From Roseobacter fucihabitans (GTDB lineage: Bacteria > Pseudomonadota > Alphaproteobacteria > Rhodobacterales > Rhodobacteraceae): a stretch of DNA of 64,000 nucleotides. The position numbers were made by a program, and so were the translations under genes. The notes below the pieces were generated by a model. That model saw only the letters and a program-made list of their open reading frames with translations. It was not told where the DNA came from and did no database searches. Positions within the stretch are counted from its first letter, which is position 1; each line of letters begins with the position of its first letter. Below are positions 10,487-23,112 of this stretch, piece by piece. Location of the stretch: contig NZ_CP143423.1 of the NCBI RefSeq assembly GCF_014337925.2, positions 1,766,501 to 1,830,500 of the forward strand. Reading direction: 5' to 3'.

Positions 10487-11404
10487 ATGTCCACCATCCT
10501 GCTCATCGAACAGATCCTGAACGGCTTGCAGTTCGGCGTCATGCTGTTCCTCATGGCCGCTGGGTTGACGCTTATTTTTGGCGTCATGGGGCTGATCAAC
10601 CTCGCGCATGGTTCGCTCTATATGGTCGGGGCCTTTGCTGCTGCTGCGGTGGCGGGGGTGACGGGGTCTTTTGTGTTGGCCTTGATCGCCAGTCTGGTCG
10701 CGGCGGCGGCAGCGGGGGCGCTGGTGGAACTGCTGGTGATCCGGCGGCTTTACGCGCGCGATCATCTGGATCAGGTGCTGGCGACCTTCGCGCTGATCCT
10801 GATCTTCTCCGAAGGTACGCGCTGGCTGTTCGGTTCCTTCCCGCTGTTTCTGGATATTCCGACGGCTTTTGCGGGGCCGGTGATGCTGCCCGGTGGCATC
10901 CAATATCCCGCCTACCGTTTGCTGATCATCGCCATCGGGCTGTTGATCGCCTTTGGCCTGTTCCAGCTGATCGCGCGCACCCGCATCGGCATTCAAATCC
11001 GTGCCGGGGAAAGTGACCGGGAAATGATTGCAGCGCTTGGCGTGGATATCTCCAAACTCTACACCATCGTCTTTGCGCTTGGCGCGGGGCTGGCCGGGCT
11101 GGCGGGCGCGCTGGTGGGTGCGATCCAATCGGTGCAGGTCGGCATGGGTGAACCGGTGCTGATCCTCGCCTTCGTGGTGATCGTGATCGGCGGCATCGGC
11201 TCGATCAAGGGCGCGCTGGTGGGCGCGTTGCTGGTGGGGCTGACGGATACGCTCGGAGGGGTGTTATTGCCCGAACTCTTTGGCACTTTCATGGAGGCGT
11301 CGGCGGCCACGGCGGTCGGTTCCTCATTGGCGTCCATGTCGATTTACATCCTGATGGCGGGGGTGTTGCTGTTCAAACCCACCGGCCTCTATGGGCGTGC
11401 CTGA
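10487..11404 (+). CDS. Liv-type ABC transporter permease (LivH family)
   Basis: Inner-membrane permease, 305 residues, about eight hydrophobic segments. The family's N-terminal pattern 'LNGLQFGVMLFLMAAGLTLIFGVMGLINLAHGSLYM' is complete, and the loop 'ALGVDISKLYTIVFALGAGLAGLAGAL' that faces the ATPase is present. GGAG lies upstream of ATG 10487. Its end overlaps the LivM-type gene. It works with the binding protein at 9264 and the ATPases at 12382 and 13134. Confidence 0.93.
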   Translation: MSTILLIEQILNGLQFGVMLFLMAAGLTLIFGVMGLINLAHGSLYMVGAFAAAAVAGVTGSFVLALIASLVAAAAAGALVELLVIRRLYARDHLDQVLATFALILIFSEGTRWLFGSFPLFLDIPTAFAGPVMLPGGIQYPAYRLLIIAIGLLIAFGLFQLIARTRIGIQIRAGESDREMIAALGVDISKLYTIVFALGAGLAGLAGALVGAIQSVQVGMGEPVLILAFVVIVIGGIGSIKGALVGALLVGLTDTLGGVLLPELFGTFMEASAATAVGSSLASMSIYILMAGVLLFKPTGLYGRA

Positions 11405-15786: not shown

Positions 15787-16265
15787 GGGGCGGGCTCCTG
15801 ACAGGCGGGACAGAGGCCCTGGGCCTCTACCACCGTATGCTCGATGGCGAACCCTGCCGCGCGCGCCGCCTCTCCCAGCCGCCCCGACGCAAGGCCGGTG
15901 TCCGCTTCCGCCACGGCATTGCACGTGCGGCAGATCAGAAAGGCGGGCGTATGGGCGGTGCGGGCCTGCGTGCAGGCGACATAGGCGTTGAGCGCCTCGA
16001 TCTTATGGGCGAGCCCCGCCTTGACCAGAAAATCAAGCGCGCGGTAGGCGACGGGGGGCTGATGCGCGCCGTGCCCGTCCTTTGAGAGTTGTGCCAGCAG
16101 CTCATAAGCCCCCAGCGCGCGGTGTTCACGCAGCAGGATTTGCAGCGCGCGCTGTCGCACAGGAGTGAAATTCAGCCCCTCCTGCGCACAGATTTCATGC
16201 GCCAGCGCCATCATATCGGTCACGCAGGTGTCGTGATCATGGGCGCAAAAACCGAGGGCAGACAT
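15783..16265 (-). CDS. zur: Zinc uptake regulator Zur (Fur family)
   Basis: Zinc-sensing repressor, 160 residues. The winged-helix part includes 'LNFTPVRQRALQILLREHRALGAYELLAQL' and 'PPVAYRALDFLVKAGLAHKIEALNAYVAC'. Two CxxC pairs that bind structural zinc are visible: 'ICRTC' near residue 112 and 'LCPAC' near the C-terminus. It is the first gene of the zur-znuC-znuB transcript and divergent from znuA, with a palindromic Zur box between them. Zur identity over Fur rests on the zinc-importer context and the box. Confidence 0.95.
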   Translation of the reverse strand: MSALGFCAHDHDTCVTDMMALAHEICAQEGLNFTPVRQRALQILLREHRALGAYELLAQLSKDGHGAHQPPVAYRALDFLVKAGLAHKIEALNAYVACTQARTAHTPAFLICRTCNAVAEADTGLASGRLGEAARAAGFAIEHTVVEAQGLCPACQEPAP

Positions 16266-16298
16266 TTATTGCAACTCCGTTCATCTCGGGATTGATGT

Positions 16299-16311
16299 GT
16301 TATAATATAAC
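16299..16311. promoter_or_regulatory. Zur box between zur and znuA
   Basis: GTTATA (16299-16304), one base A, TATAAC (16306-16311): a perfect inverted repeat matching the GTTATA-N-TATAAC type known for Fur-family zinc regulators in alphaproteobacteria. It lies 34 bases before the zur start and 38 bases before the znuA start, so it could repress both directions. A second TATAAC half-site lies at 16330-16335. Confidence 0.8.
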
Positions 16312-16348
16312 TGTTAGCAGATGCGGGATATAACAACAAGGTGATGAT

Positions 16349-17488
16349 ATGCGTGTTTTCAGTCTTCTTCTGGCCGCTACCTGTCTGAGTGGCCCGGTTT
16401 TTGCGCAAACGCCGCGCGTGGCGAGTGACATCGCCCCTGTGCATGGTTTGGTGAGTCGCGTCATGGCGGGGGTTGGTGTGCCCGATCTGATCCTGCCCCC
16501 CGGTGCCTCGCCCCATTCCTATGCCATGCGCCCCTCTGAGGCGCGCGCGTTGGCGCAAGCCGATATGGTGGTCTTGGTCGGGCCTGCGCTGACGCCCTGG
16601 CTGAGCGGATCGCTGGAGGCGCTGGCCCCGGATGCCGTGCGCCTTGAATGGATGCAGAGCGCGACACTCTTGCCATTTCGAGAGGGTGCACTTTTTGACG
16701 GGCATGACCATGCGCATGGGTCTGAGGCAGACGGGCACGAGGATCACGATGCGCATGACGATCACGATGCGCATGAGGATGAACATCACGCCGCAGATGA
16801 GCACCAAACCCACGACGACCACGCCGCAAAACATGAAGACCACGATGCGCACGGGCATGAGGACCACGCCACACAAGGGCATGAAGATCATGACGCAAAA
16901 GACCATGCGGAGCACGCGCCAAAAGGGGATGATGAACACCACGCTGAGGATCATGCCGCGCAGTGGGACCCTCATGTGTGGCTCGATCCGGCGAATGGGT
17001 CGGCTTTTCTGATGCGCATTGCACAGGAACTTGGCGCGCTTGATCCGAAAAACGCAGAAACCTATCTCAGCAATGCGCGCGCGGGGCAGGCGGAGCTTGC
17101 AGCGCTGACAGACCGGATCGCGTCGGAAATGACGGCGGTGCAGGGGCGTCCCTTTGTGGTGTTCCATGACGCCTACCACTATTTCGAGGCCCGCTTTGAT
17201 GTGGAAGCGGTGGCCTCGATCAATCAAGCCGATGACAGTGCTGCAAGTGCGGGGCGCCTGGCAGAGGTGCGCGACGCCGCGCAAACCGCAAACATCGCTT
17301 GCTTTTTCACGGAACCACAAGCCCCCGAAGGCCTCGTCGAAGCGGTGGCCGGAAGAGAGGGCGCGCGGATCGGCATCATCGACCCGATCGGCGCAGAGAT
17401 CGCATTGGGCGCGGATTTCTACCCGGCCCTGATGACGCAGATCGCCACGTCCTTTAGCGAATGCCTGTCGGAGGATGCACAAAAATAA
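16349..17488 (+). CDS. znuA: Zinc ABC transporter substrate-binding protein ZnuA with extended His/Asp loop
   Basis: Periplasmic zinc-binding protein, 379 residues. Signal peptide MRVFSLLLAATCLSGPVFA, then 'VASDIAPVHGLVSRVMAGVGVPDLILPPGASPHSYAMRPSEA' with the first zinc-ligand histidine. The flexible loop at residues about 117-205 is unusually long and holds about 25 histidines interleaved with Asp/Glu. After it come 'DPHVWLDPANG' (second ligand histidine), 'VVFHDAYHYFEARF' (third) and 'IIDPIGAE' (aspartate). The loop is thought to capture or buffer zinc in this family. It is divergently transcribed from zur and followed by a hairpin terminator. Confidence 0.96.
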   Translation: MRVFSLLLAATCLSGPVFAQTPRVASDIAPVHGLVSRVMAGVGVPDLILPPGASPHSYAMRPSEARALAQADMVVLVGPALTPWLSGSLEALAPDAVRLEWMQSATLLPFREGALFDGHDHAHGSEADGHEDHDAHDDHDAHEDEHHAADEHQTHDDHAAKHEDHDAHGHEDHATQGHEDHDAKDHAEHAPKGDDEHHAEDHAAQWDPHVWLDPANGSAFLMRIAQELGALDPKNAETYLSNARAGQAELAALTDRIASEMTAVQGRPFVVFHDAYHYFEARFDVEAVASINQADDSAASAGRLAEVRDAAQTANIACFFTEPQAPEGLVEAVAGREGARIGIIDPIGAEIALGADFYPALMTQIATSFSECLSEDAQK

Positions 17489-19731: not shown

Positions 19732-20931
19732 TCAAATGATCCGTGAGAGGAGGTCGGGAATGTGCTTTCTGAAAGGGAAAAAGCCCTTTGTTGCCAGCGG
19801 CCAGGAAGCATCGTCATAGGGACGGCGCATGGCAATGAGGCTTGGCGCATCCGGGTGATTGCGCAGGGAGTGCAGAACTGCGGCAATTGGTCCCACCGGT
19901 GCATGGGGCGTGACGATCTGGTCCAGGCCTTTGGTTGCGGCCCAGGTGATGATGTCCTGGGCGGTGGTCAGGTTTTCGCGCTCCCCCAACCTGTCCGACC
20001 AGCGCGCGGTGACGTCGTTCATGGCTGCCCCGCGAAAATCCGCGACATGCGGCGCGGGTGTCTGTGGGCTGTATCCGTTTTCAGGAGACAGTGTGGCCGT
20101 GGCGAGGGGCGCGATCTGCTCCAGGACGAATCCGGGGCTGAGGTCTTCGGAATGTAGCAGCAATCCCGTTCTAAGTGCAGGATCGGGTGTGGTGGTGGGC
20201 GGCAGGGCGCGCGGCGGGTGCGGCGCAGTTGCGAGCAGCGGGGCGGCATGGGTGGCGAGCCCCTGTGGTCTGAAACGGCCTTCGGTATATTTTTCAATGT
20301 TGTCGGCGCGCGCCAGATAGGTTTTGCCCTGTGTCTGCTGGCCCGAGACCCAACGCCAGCTGAGCGTGTTGGAGGCCGGATCCCCGTCCAGTAGGTGGCG
20401 CAGAAAGAAATCCGCCCCCAAGCTCCAGGGCAGGCGCAACGTAAAGACCCAGATGGAGGCGAACCACATGCGCGCGTGATTATGCAGATACCCCGTCTGC
20501 ACCAATTCCCGCGCCCAATGATCAAAGCAATCGATCCCGGTGGTGCCGAGACAGGCGCTTTCCCATCGCGCGCGCAGTCCGGATTGAGTTTGCAAATCGT
20601 CAACATCCCGCTGCAGGTCTGCGCGGTATTGCTCCCAGACGCCGGGGCGCAATTCCAGCCAGCCTTTCCAATAGGTGCGCCAGAACACTTCCTGAATGAA
20701 TTTTTCCGCCGCCGCTTGGCTATGACGGGCCAGTACGGCCTCCAGCACCTCTGCTTCGGTGATAAGGCGGCAGCGCAGATAAGGCGAGAGCGTCGATACG
20801 CCCGTATGGCCCTGCGCCCCAAGGTCATAGTTGCGCCGCGCCGCGTAACTGCGCCCGGCGTTGGGGATGAAACGGGCCAGCCGTTCGAGGGCGGCCGTGC
20901 GGGTCGGGGGGAATATATCCAATGCGCTCAT
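19732..20931 (-). CDS. Photolyase/cryptochrome-like flavoprotein with swapped domain order
   Basis: 399 residues. The first ~230 residues match the helical FAD-binding half of photolyases: 'GVSTLSPYLRCRLITEAEV', 'EVFWRTYWKGWLELRPGVW', 'TGYLHNHARMWFASIWVF' and 'LDGDPASNTLSWRWVSGQQTQGKTY'. In normal photolyases this half comes after an alpha/beta domain. Here nothing precedes it, and the last ~150 residues instead contain 'TGLLLHSEDLSPG' (like the usual first strand) and finish with 'ATKGFFPFRKHIPDLL', which resembles the 'FTPFxK' segment that normally ends the alpha/beta domain. The protein may therefore be circularly permuted. It could repair DNA or sense blue light; the chromophore pocket is unclear. 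ATG 20931 was taken as start. Confidence 0.8.
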   Translation of the reverse strand: MSALDIFPPTRTAALERLARFIPNAGRSYAARRNYDLGAQGHTGVSTLSPYLRCRLITEAEVLEAVLARHSQAAAEKFIQEVFWRTYWKGWLELRPGVWEQYRADLQRDVDDLQTQSGLRARWESACLGTTGIDCFDHWARELVQTGYLHNHARMWFASIWVFTLRLPWSLGADFFLRHLLDGDPASNTLSWRWVSGQQTQGKTYLARADNIEKYTEGRFRPQGLATHAAPLLATAPHPPRALPPTTTPDPALRTGLLLHSEDLSPGFVLEQIAPLATATLSPENGYSPQTPAPHVADFRGAAMNDVTARWSDRLGERENLTTAQDIITWAATKGLDQIVTPHAPVGPIAAVLHSLRNHPDAPSLIAMRRPYDDASWPLATKGFFPFRKHIPDLLSRII

Positions 20932-21082
20932 TGGGGGGCAGATAAGGCGCGCGCAACATTGATCAACAGGATTACCTAAGATTGAACCGGCCCCCCTTGC
21001 GGCCCCCGTTTGGCAATACTAAGCTTTGGGTAACGGTTCGCGGAGTATGGTCTTAGCGAACACCAATGAACAGGCATCCCAC

Positions 21083-21712
21083 ATGAACGATCCCATCGAC
21101 ACCTATATGAACCTTGTCCCCATGGTTGTGGAGCAAACCAGCCGGGGCGAGCGGGCTTATGACATCTTTTCGCGCTTGCTCAAGGAACGGATTATTTTCA
21201 TCAATGGTCCGATCCACAGCGGCATGAGCCACCTGATTGTTGCGCAGCTGCTGCATCTGGAGGCGGAAAATCCGTCCAAGGAAATCAGCATATACGTCAA
21301 TTCGCCCGGTGGTGAGGTAACGGCAGGCCTGTCGATTTATGATACGATGCAATATATCCGGCCCAAGGTATCGACCCTGATCTGCGGTATGGCCGCCTCG
21401 ATGGGGTCGGTCATTGCGATTGGTGGCGAGAAGGGGATGCGGTTTGCCTTGCCGAATGCGGAAGTGATGATCCACCAGCCCTCGGGCGGCTCGCAGGGCA
21501 AAGCCGAGGATATCCTGATTTCCGCGCGCCACATCGAGCGGACCCGTGAGCGGATGTATCACCTTTATGTCAAGCACTCTGGCCAATCGCTTAAGACCGT
21601 GCAAAAGGCGCTGGACCGGGATCTGTGGATGACGCCCGAAGAGGCCAAGGAATGGGGTCATGTCGACGAGATCGTCGAGAGCCGCAGTAGCGAAGATGAT
21701 GACAAGAAATAG
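21083..21712 (+). CDS. clpP: ATP-dependent Clp protease proteolytic subunit ClpP
   Basis: Serine peptidase that forms the degradation chamber for ClpX/ClpA, 209 residues, normal length. The catalytic triad is visible: Ser106 in 'GMAASMGS', His131 in '[13 protein letters not shown]', Asp180 in 'ALDRDLWMT'. The N-terminal '[33 protein letters not shown]' fits a start at ATG 21083; in-frame starts upstream (21026) would add an unrelated leader. clpX follows 134 bases later on the same strand, the standard arrangement. Confidence 0.97.
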
Positions 21713-21846
21713 GCAGCACGGGACGCGGCGCGTTTACCAATTAGCGATTGTGGACCTGAAAACGCTGGCCTAAACTGCCAAGATAAGTTCGAACGTCCCA
21801 GAACATGGGGCGACACAGATGACACGCGAGACCTGAAAGAGTTGAT

Positions 21847-23112
21847 ATGGCTACGAATTCGACGGGCGACAGCAAGAACACCCTTTATTGCAGCTTCTGC
21901 GGCAAGAGCCAGCATGAGGTGCGCAAGCTGATTGCTGGTCCGACCGTCTTCATCTGTGATGAATGTGTCGAGCTTTGCATGGACATTATTCGCGAGGAAA
22001 CAAAGGCCTCCGGTTTGAAGGCGACGGATGGTGTTCCGACGCCCAAGGACATTTGCGAGGTCCTGGATGATTATGTGATCGGTCAGGCCACGGCAAAGCG
22101 GGTTCTGTCGGTGGCGGTGCACAACCATTACAAACGGTTGAATCACGCGCAAAAGGGCGGCGATATCGAGCTGGCGAAGTCCAACATCCTGCTGATTGGC
22201 CCAACGGGTTGTGGTAAAACGCTTTTGGCACAGACGCTTGCGCGGATTCTGGATGTGCCGTTCACCATGGCCGATGCCACCACGCTGACCGAAGCGGGAT
22301 ATGTTGGGGAGGACGTTGAGAACATCATCCTCAAGCTGCTGCAATCCTCCGAGTATAATGTGGAGCGGGCGCAGCGTGGTATCGTATATATTGACGAGGT
22401 CGATAAGATTACGCGTAAATCGGAAAACCCCTCGATTACCCGCGATGTGTCGGGCGAGGGTGTGCAGCAGGCCTTGTTGAAACTGATGGAGGGCACCGTG
22501 GCCTCCGTCCCGCCTCAGGGCGGGCGCAAACATCCCCAGCAGGAATTCCTGCAAGTAGATACAACGAATATCCTGTTTATCTGCGGTGGTGCCTTTGCGG
22601 GGCTGGACAAGATCATTGCGGCGCGTGGCAAAGGATCGGCCATGGGGTTTGGGGCGGATGTGCGTGATAATGATGCGCGTGGCGTTGGCGAGATATTCAC
22701 TGATCTTGAACCGGAAGACCTGCTCAAATTCGGCCTGATACCGGAGTTTGTTGGCCGTTTGCCGGTTCTGGCAACGTTGGAAGATCTGGATGAGGATGCT
22801 CTTGTCACGATCCTGACGCAGCCGAAAAACGCTTTGGTCAAGCAATATCAGCGCCTGTTCGAACTCGAAGATACAGAACTGAGTTTCACAGATGACGCGC
22901 TTGCGGCAATCGCCAAGCGGGCGATTGAGCGCAAGACCGGTGCGCGGGGCCTGCGCTCGATCCTGGAGGACATCCTGCTTGATACGATGTTCGAGCTTCC
23001 TGGACTCGATAGCGTCAATGAGGTCGTGGTGAATGAAGAGGCGGTCAACTCTGACGCAGCACCTTTGATGATCCATTCTGATGCTGAAAAAGAACCTGCA
23101 AGTGCTGGCTGA
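21847..23112 (+). CDS. clpX: ATP-dependent Clp protease ATPase subunit ClpX
   Basis: AAA+ unfoldase that feeds substrates to ClpP, 421 residues, normal length. The N-terminal zinc-binding domain has its four cysteines in 'YCSFCGKS' and '[10 protein letters not shown]'. Walker A '[15 protein letters not shown]' lies near residue 119, Walker B '[10 protein letters not shown]' near 183, the pore/loop region in '[12 protein letters not shown]', the sensor-type '[12 protein letters not shown]', and the small domain ends with '[18 protein letters not shown]'. GAAAGAG lies shortly before ATG 21847. Confidence 0.97.

Follow-up and report, generated by a model that had tools for sequence, protein, structure and literature searches.

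The order in which the domains of photolyases are joined bears on the question of which form of the family is ancestral, and a gene of Roseobacter fucihabitans seems to carry its two domains in exchanged order. The gene occupies positions 19732–20931 of a 64,000-nucleotide stretch of contig NZ_CP143423.1 (the window, hereafter), where an open reading frame (ORF) with an ATG start runs uninterrupted on the minus strand and encodes 399 amino acids. A first-pass annotation had quoted photolyase motifs in this ORF, which are indeed present, and had proposed a circularly permuted photolyase in which the helical half that binds flavin adenine dinucleotide (FAD) precedes the alpha/beta half. Our analysis indicates that the gene very probably encodes a photolyase of the NewPHL type, that is, an enzyme for light-driven, FAD-dependent splitting of cyclobutane pyrimidine dimers (CPDs), most likely in single-stranded DNA. 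The permuted-looking architecture is real and was correctly read from the sequence, yet its class has already been published and includes a close orthologue that is characterised. The swapped-domain arrangement has been known since 2020 from the NewPHL photolyases, one of them in a related marine bacterium, and the gene is a typical representative of that group. The architecture is therefore not a discovery, and the addition made here is a small one, namely a confident prediction of the photolyase alpha/beta fold for the C-terminal domain. The gene and its parts are as follows.

19732..20931, minus strand: complete gene of 399 amino acids, assigned to the NewPHL-type photolyases, FAD domain first (ORF, PF03441 match, AlphaFold2 model, reciprocal best match in Dinoroseobacter shibae)
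20233..20931, minus strand: residues 1–233, helical FAD-binding catalytic domain (VIA-align to 1iqr 171–407; conserved residues E81, W84, N151, R154, M155, W169, D182, D184, N188 and W192)
20176..20232, minus strand: residues 234–252, variable linker (column identity and predicted local distance difference test, pLDDT)
19735..20175, minus strand: residues 253–399, predicted C-terminal alpha/beta domain (the "Z-domain" of NewPHL), with five strands alternating with helices and a conserved W-P-x-A-x-x-G-F-F end (AlphaFold2, VIA-align, conservation)

The Pfam model FAD_binding_7 (PF03441) matches residues 78–209 of the window protein with E = 1.4e-21, and no other Pfam model was found up to E = 1. 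Accordingly, the list to E = 1 includes neither PF00875, which stands ahead of the FAD domain in class I/III photolyases, nor PF04244, which characterises the FeS-BCP or PhrB-type (6-4) photolyases, and the structural match of the FAD domain begins at residue 1 of the model. The NCBIfam scores for ordinary photolyases, Cry-DASH and plant cryptochromes are all far below their cut-offs, with 65 bits for the Cry-DASH model TIGR02765 against a cut-off of 317.05. The four cluster cysteines were not found either, as the protein has three cysteines and a single cysteine column reaches 36 of the 72 sequences of our larger alignment. This alignment (A2) was obtained from a scan with residue patterns, and a smaller one (A1) contains 17 relatives found without such patterns.

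The class to which the protein does conform is NewPHL. According to a passage of PMC13274461, NewPHLs have an inverted domain topology, and A8LJA9 of D. shibae is one of them. Elsewhere, a tryptophan dyad is mentioned for the D. shibae NewPHL (in a passage of PMC8948257) and the flavin-switch asparagine is stated to be kept in NewPHL (in a passage of PMC12083526). In PMC9426592, a section that cites Emmerich et al. 2020 gives Phr7 a FAD domain at the N-terminus with a C-terminal Z-domain behind it, and states that the D. shibae and M. mesophilicum enzymes were shown to be CPD photolyases of single-stranded DNA. The window protein shares the inverted topology with the FAD domain first and the Z-domain last, the tryptophan dyad, the flavin asparagine and orthology with the D. 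shibae member. Only ordinary sequence divergence was found as a difference, the likeness being known here from sequence and predicted structure. Literature searches on circular permutation and on Rhodobacteraceae returned, respectively, no title on a permuted photolyase among those listed and nothing relevant to a swapped-domain photolyase.

The orthology can be traced in one of the genomes searched, which is recognisable as D. shibae from two 5-kb stretches that match plasmids NC_009955 and NC_009956 at 100% identity. This genome has three ORFs with PF03441, of which the 584- and 524-residue frames also carry PF00875 and the 406-residue frame does not. Because the latter is the sole FAD-first one among the three, we equate it with A8LJA9. 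It shares 59% identity with the window protein over residues 6–397, and the reverse search from D. shibae gave 468.6 bits for this ORF compared to 48 for the next, which makes the pair reciprocal best matches. We also built an exploratory tree of FAD domains from every fourth row of A2 (18 of 72), the D. shibae sequence and a comparison set of ordinary photolyases (20 of 30 loci, those meeting a motif rule). All 19 FAD-first sequences, including that of D. shibae, formed one clade with a FastTree local support of 0.928, which excluded the 20 comparison sequences as well as the remaining two photolyases of D. shibae. Judging from the reciprocal best match and the shared clade, the window protein would in all likelihood be a NewPHL orthologue.

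The AlphaFold2 model of the full protein, computed with 72 aligned sequences, has a mean pLDDT of 96.1 and a predicted template modelling score (pTM) of 0.93. Residues 1–233 are helical and align by VIA-align to photolyase FAD domains, with Z = 16.4 for residues 171–407 of the 1iqr chain (206 aligned, 2.3 Å) and Z = 15.0 for the FAD domain of 1dnp. Residues 240–399 folded alone reach a pLDDT of 94.2 and a pTM of 0.88. Over nearly their whole length, the C-terminal 160 residues align to the alpha/beta domains that stand N-terminally in photolyases, namely to residues 2–159 of 8ijy with Z = 10.1 (139 aligned, 3.2 Å) and to residues 2–148 of 1iqr with Z = 10.0 (137 aligned, 2.9 Å), and the top four photolyase rows lie at Z 9.7–10.1 with 137–142 of the 160 residues. 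The models thus bear out the exchanged order of the two domains, and the C-terminal half does not adopt an unrelated fold, an outcome that the first-pass annotation had named as fatal to its proposal. The idea of a circular permutation holds with one qualification. The domain order is reversed, but the predicted alpha/beta domain is not reshuffled internally: it aligns to photolyases in normal order from the first strand, and the exchange in the models is one of whole domains. The region between the domains is variable, with a mean column identity of 0.42 in A2 (residues 226–252) and a pLDDT of 87 in the block 231–240.

Comparison of the two halves as separate sequence profiles, which the annotation had also proposed, was informative for one of them. 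The FAD halves match by hhalign with 99.7% probability, whereas the alignment of C-terminal domains compared with 20 ordinary alpha/beta domains gave a probability of 10% and a 29-column match judged to be off register, the ordinary profile being shallow (Neff about 3). A profile search of PDB sequences with the C-terminal half found nothing below E = 0.15 and no photolyases. Among the 72 C-terminal halves of A2, PF00875 appeared in one, at E = 0.1, and BLH_phosphatase in six, with a best value of 8e-05 that we take to be spurious; the window protein's own C-terminal half had no Pfam match in the same scan. Since the profile comparisons gave no usable signal, the alpha/beta assignment rests on the fold.

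It is this situation that gives weight to a rival explanation, according to which an independent HUP or universal-stress-like domain was fused to a photolyase FAD domain as its C-terminal half and merely resembles the alpha/beta domain. Apart from the missing sequence relation, universal stress proteins account for 20 of the 50 VIA-align rows listed, the other 30 being photolyases or cryptochromes, and they begin at Z = 9.5, less than 1 Z unit below the top photolyase and hence in the range of a tie. They also come first in the Foldseek list for this half, where photolyases are among the 50 matches listed and none of the matches reaches E = 0.001. The two groups differ in coverage. Of the 30 photolyase and cryptochrome rows, 29 reach residue 158 or 160 of the model with 137–152 residues aligned (the exception, 9q8f, ends at 133 with 118 aligned), whereas all 20 universal-stress rows end at residues 129–143. 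Single-domain universal stress proteins align over 109–119 residues, and tandem UspE-type proteins over 126–138 at 4.0–5.2 Å. The terminal segment of the domain is matched by photolyases only, among the 50 rows listed. An independent origin of the C-terminal half is therefore unlikely in our judgement, although it retains some weight, and fold and coverage, not sequence, support the predicted exchange of domain order. On the same structural grounds, the C-terminal domain probably shares its ancestry with the alpha/beta domain of photolyases. A stronger version of this relationship would have the relocated domain, once light-harvesting, still hold a small ligand or antenna at its conserved beta-4/alpha-4 loop (P345, G347, P348). 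If so, these proteins would be complete two-chromophore photolyases in reverse order and not antenna-less ones; we consider this a long shot.

The catalytic domain carries the residues expected of a CPD photolyase. At the CPD-site positions E81, W84, N151, R154 and M155, all 17 sequences of A1 carry the same residue, and so do all 72 of A2, the latter figure being partly a product of how A2 was assembled (see below). The same complete identity in both alignments is found for the FAD aspartates D182 and D184, for the flavin asparagine N188, and for the inner tryptophans W192 and W169. The distal position of the usual triad is a tryptophan in none of the 17 and one of the 72 sequences, and the position three residues before it in one of 17 and seven of 72. 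The tryptophan-chain positions were mapped through an alignment of the window protein with 1tez; the functional numbering of the mapped residues, in terms of E. coli and A. nidulans residue numbers, is the one we assume to apply, and N188 is presumably the flavin-controlling asparagine. The mean column identity in A2 is 0.73 for residues 1–225 and 0.49 for residues 253–399, and the second domain is less constrained in this sense. Within it, conservation is highest at D263, F299, the P345-x-G347-P348 loop, R370, D373 and the segment W377-P-x-A-x-x-G-F-F.

These observations are consistent with the following scheme. The N-terminal helical domain would bind FAD and the lesion, and blue or near-UV light would excite the reduced FAD, which would pass an electron to the dimer and cause it to split. 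Re-reduction of FAD could involve a pair of tryptophans, first W192 beside the FAD and then W169, compared with the usual three. The alpha/beta domain, following the catalytic domain in the chain, is probably packed on it and may close the FAD pocket, a sealing role that Emmerich et al. 2020 reportedly ascribe to the C-terminal domain of NewPHL.

An alternative is that the protein is NewPHL-like but performs no repair and acts as a blue-light sensor, that is, as a cryptochrome. Related bacteria do possess regulators from the photolyase family, such as CryB of Rhodobacter sphaeroides (PMC3320616). Repair by the window protein is also possibly redundant, because the host genome contains an ordinary photolyase and a PF04244 protein of the PhrB type, which, with the window gene, brings the photolyase-family genes found there to three. 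Against a sensor, the identity of the five CPD-site residues in all relatives found without residue patterns argues for selection on repair, and the characterised D. shibae orthologue is presented as a repair enzyme in the literature passages cited above. We regard a pure sensor as most improbable and the assignment to the NewPHL repair photolyases as much the better one.

Several points nevertheless weigh against that assignment. A locus entered A2 only if it contained one of two peptide patterns that cover E81, W84, N151, R154 and M155 (the first pattern occurs in 58 of the 72 rows, the second in 67, and at least one in all 72), so the conservation of these residues in A2 partly reflects the selection. 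The D. shibae ORF is identified with A8LJA9 by its domain order and not by a letter-by-letter comparison. The profile comparisons give no usable link in sequence from the C-terminal domain to its counterpart in ordinary photolyases. The CPD specificity, the preference for single strands and the electron path proposed here are drawn from orthology and from general knowledge of photolyases.

Other members of the family share some of these features. In class I/III CPD photolyases, the electron chain contains three tryptophans, compared to two in the window protein. Representatives of these classes (4u63, 1owl, 1dnp) resemble it in the FAD domain and the CPD-site residues, with phmmer E values from 4e-17 to 6.1e-16, and differ in having the alpha/beta antenna domain first. 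Inverted domain order is also described, in a section of PMC9426592, for Phr4 and Phr5 of Synechococcus and Phr6 of Cyanobium. The same section contrasts Phr7, as lacking the iron–sulphur cysteines, with Phr4 and Phr6, and the window family, compared here by description, likewise lacks four conserved cysteines. The short photolyase-like (SPL) proteins have, in passages of PMC9649867, PMC9178010 and PMC9498864, a CPD-type FAD domain without the N-terminal alpha/beta domain; the window protein differs from them in having an alpha/beta domain, at its C-terminus. Parts of PMC9649867 and PMC9498864 propose that SPL proteins may stand near the root of the photolyase family. The predicted C-terminal alpha/beta fold matters because SPL proteins are described as being without that domain at the N-terminus.

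The gene is widespread and conserved, as relatives occur across the family, the genus and the named genomes. In the family search, full-length ones were found in 16 of 60 other genomes at 44–61% identity, with one further fragment at a contig edge. One genome of the family (G006) has two full-length FAD-first copies, at C38:223294-224469 and C42:207552-208745, with identities of 53% and 47% to the window protein. Among named genomes, partly the same as those of the family search, a scan yielded at least 594 relatives, of which the best 80 were kept. These are mostly from Rhodobacteraceae, and also from Sphingomonadales, Microbacteriaceae (Curtobacterium, Frigoribacterium, Cryobacterium), Thioalkalivibrio, Acidiphilium and others. 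From these 80 loci, 71 entered the sets A2 and A4; seven were dropped for want of an ATG or GTG upstream of the match, and two (L078 and L085) were incomplete. In the phylum search, which scored up to 12 candidates per genome, the C-terminal domain was found in at least 12 of 299 genomes. None of the 61 genomes searched passed the Cry-DASH cut-off, so this set offers no contrast for the reported substitution of NewPHL for Cry-DASH.

Of the 19 genomes of the genus, 16 contain a full-length match, and two of these copies are interrupted by one in-frame TGA (G361:C1:2347541-2348734 and G364:C12:8036-9229). Two genomes (G366 and G368) have no full match, and together these cases suggest that the gene may be decaying in some lineages. 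In another genome of the genus (G362) the gene is split domain by domain between two contig ends, G362:C25:24-701 and G362:C36:18-530, which may reflect an assembly break or a repeat inserted at the domain boundary.

Two other origins of the ORF were considered. A chance or artefactual ORF is rejected by the full-length relatives in many genomes. An origin from a phage or plasmid is not supported: the scan of viral_contigs found no relatives, and 80% of the query was covered in none of the 10 matched phage records compared with 7 of 158 plasmid records.

On one side of the photolyase gene lies a PhoX phosphatase gene, which is present in 3 of the 80 related loci. A candidate ORF of 420 residues at window positions 16220–17482 (minus strand), overlapped on the other strand by a 379-residue ORF (16349–17488), has no Pfam match at E = 0.001 and has a tblastn relative at 1e-20 in one of the 80 related loci. 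A scan of the window for LexA-type boxes gave a single match, at 10508, away from the photolyase gene and below the chance mean. On its other side, the photolyase gene adjoins clpP and clpX (identified by Pfam) in a divergent, head-to-head arrangement that spans window positions 19732–23112. By tblastn at 1e-20, clpP is present in 45 and clpX in 43 of the 80 related loci, where some flanks are short and presence was scored, not orientation. The clpP–clpX neighbourhood is recurrent, without an evident functional link. A 472-residue open frame antisense to clpX (21658–23076, minus strand) is most likely a shadow of sequence composition.
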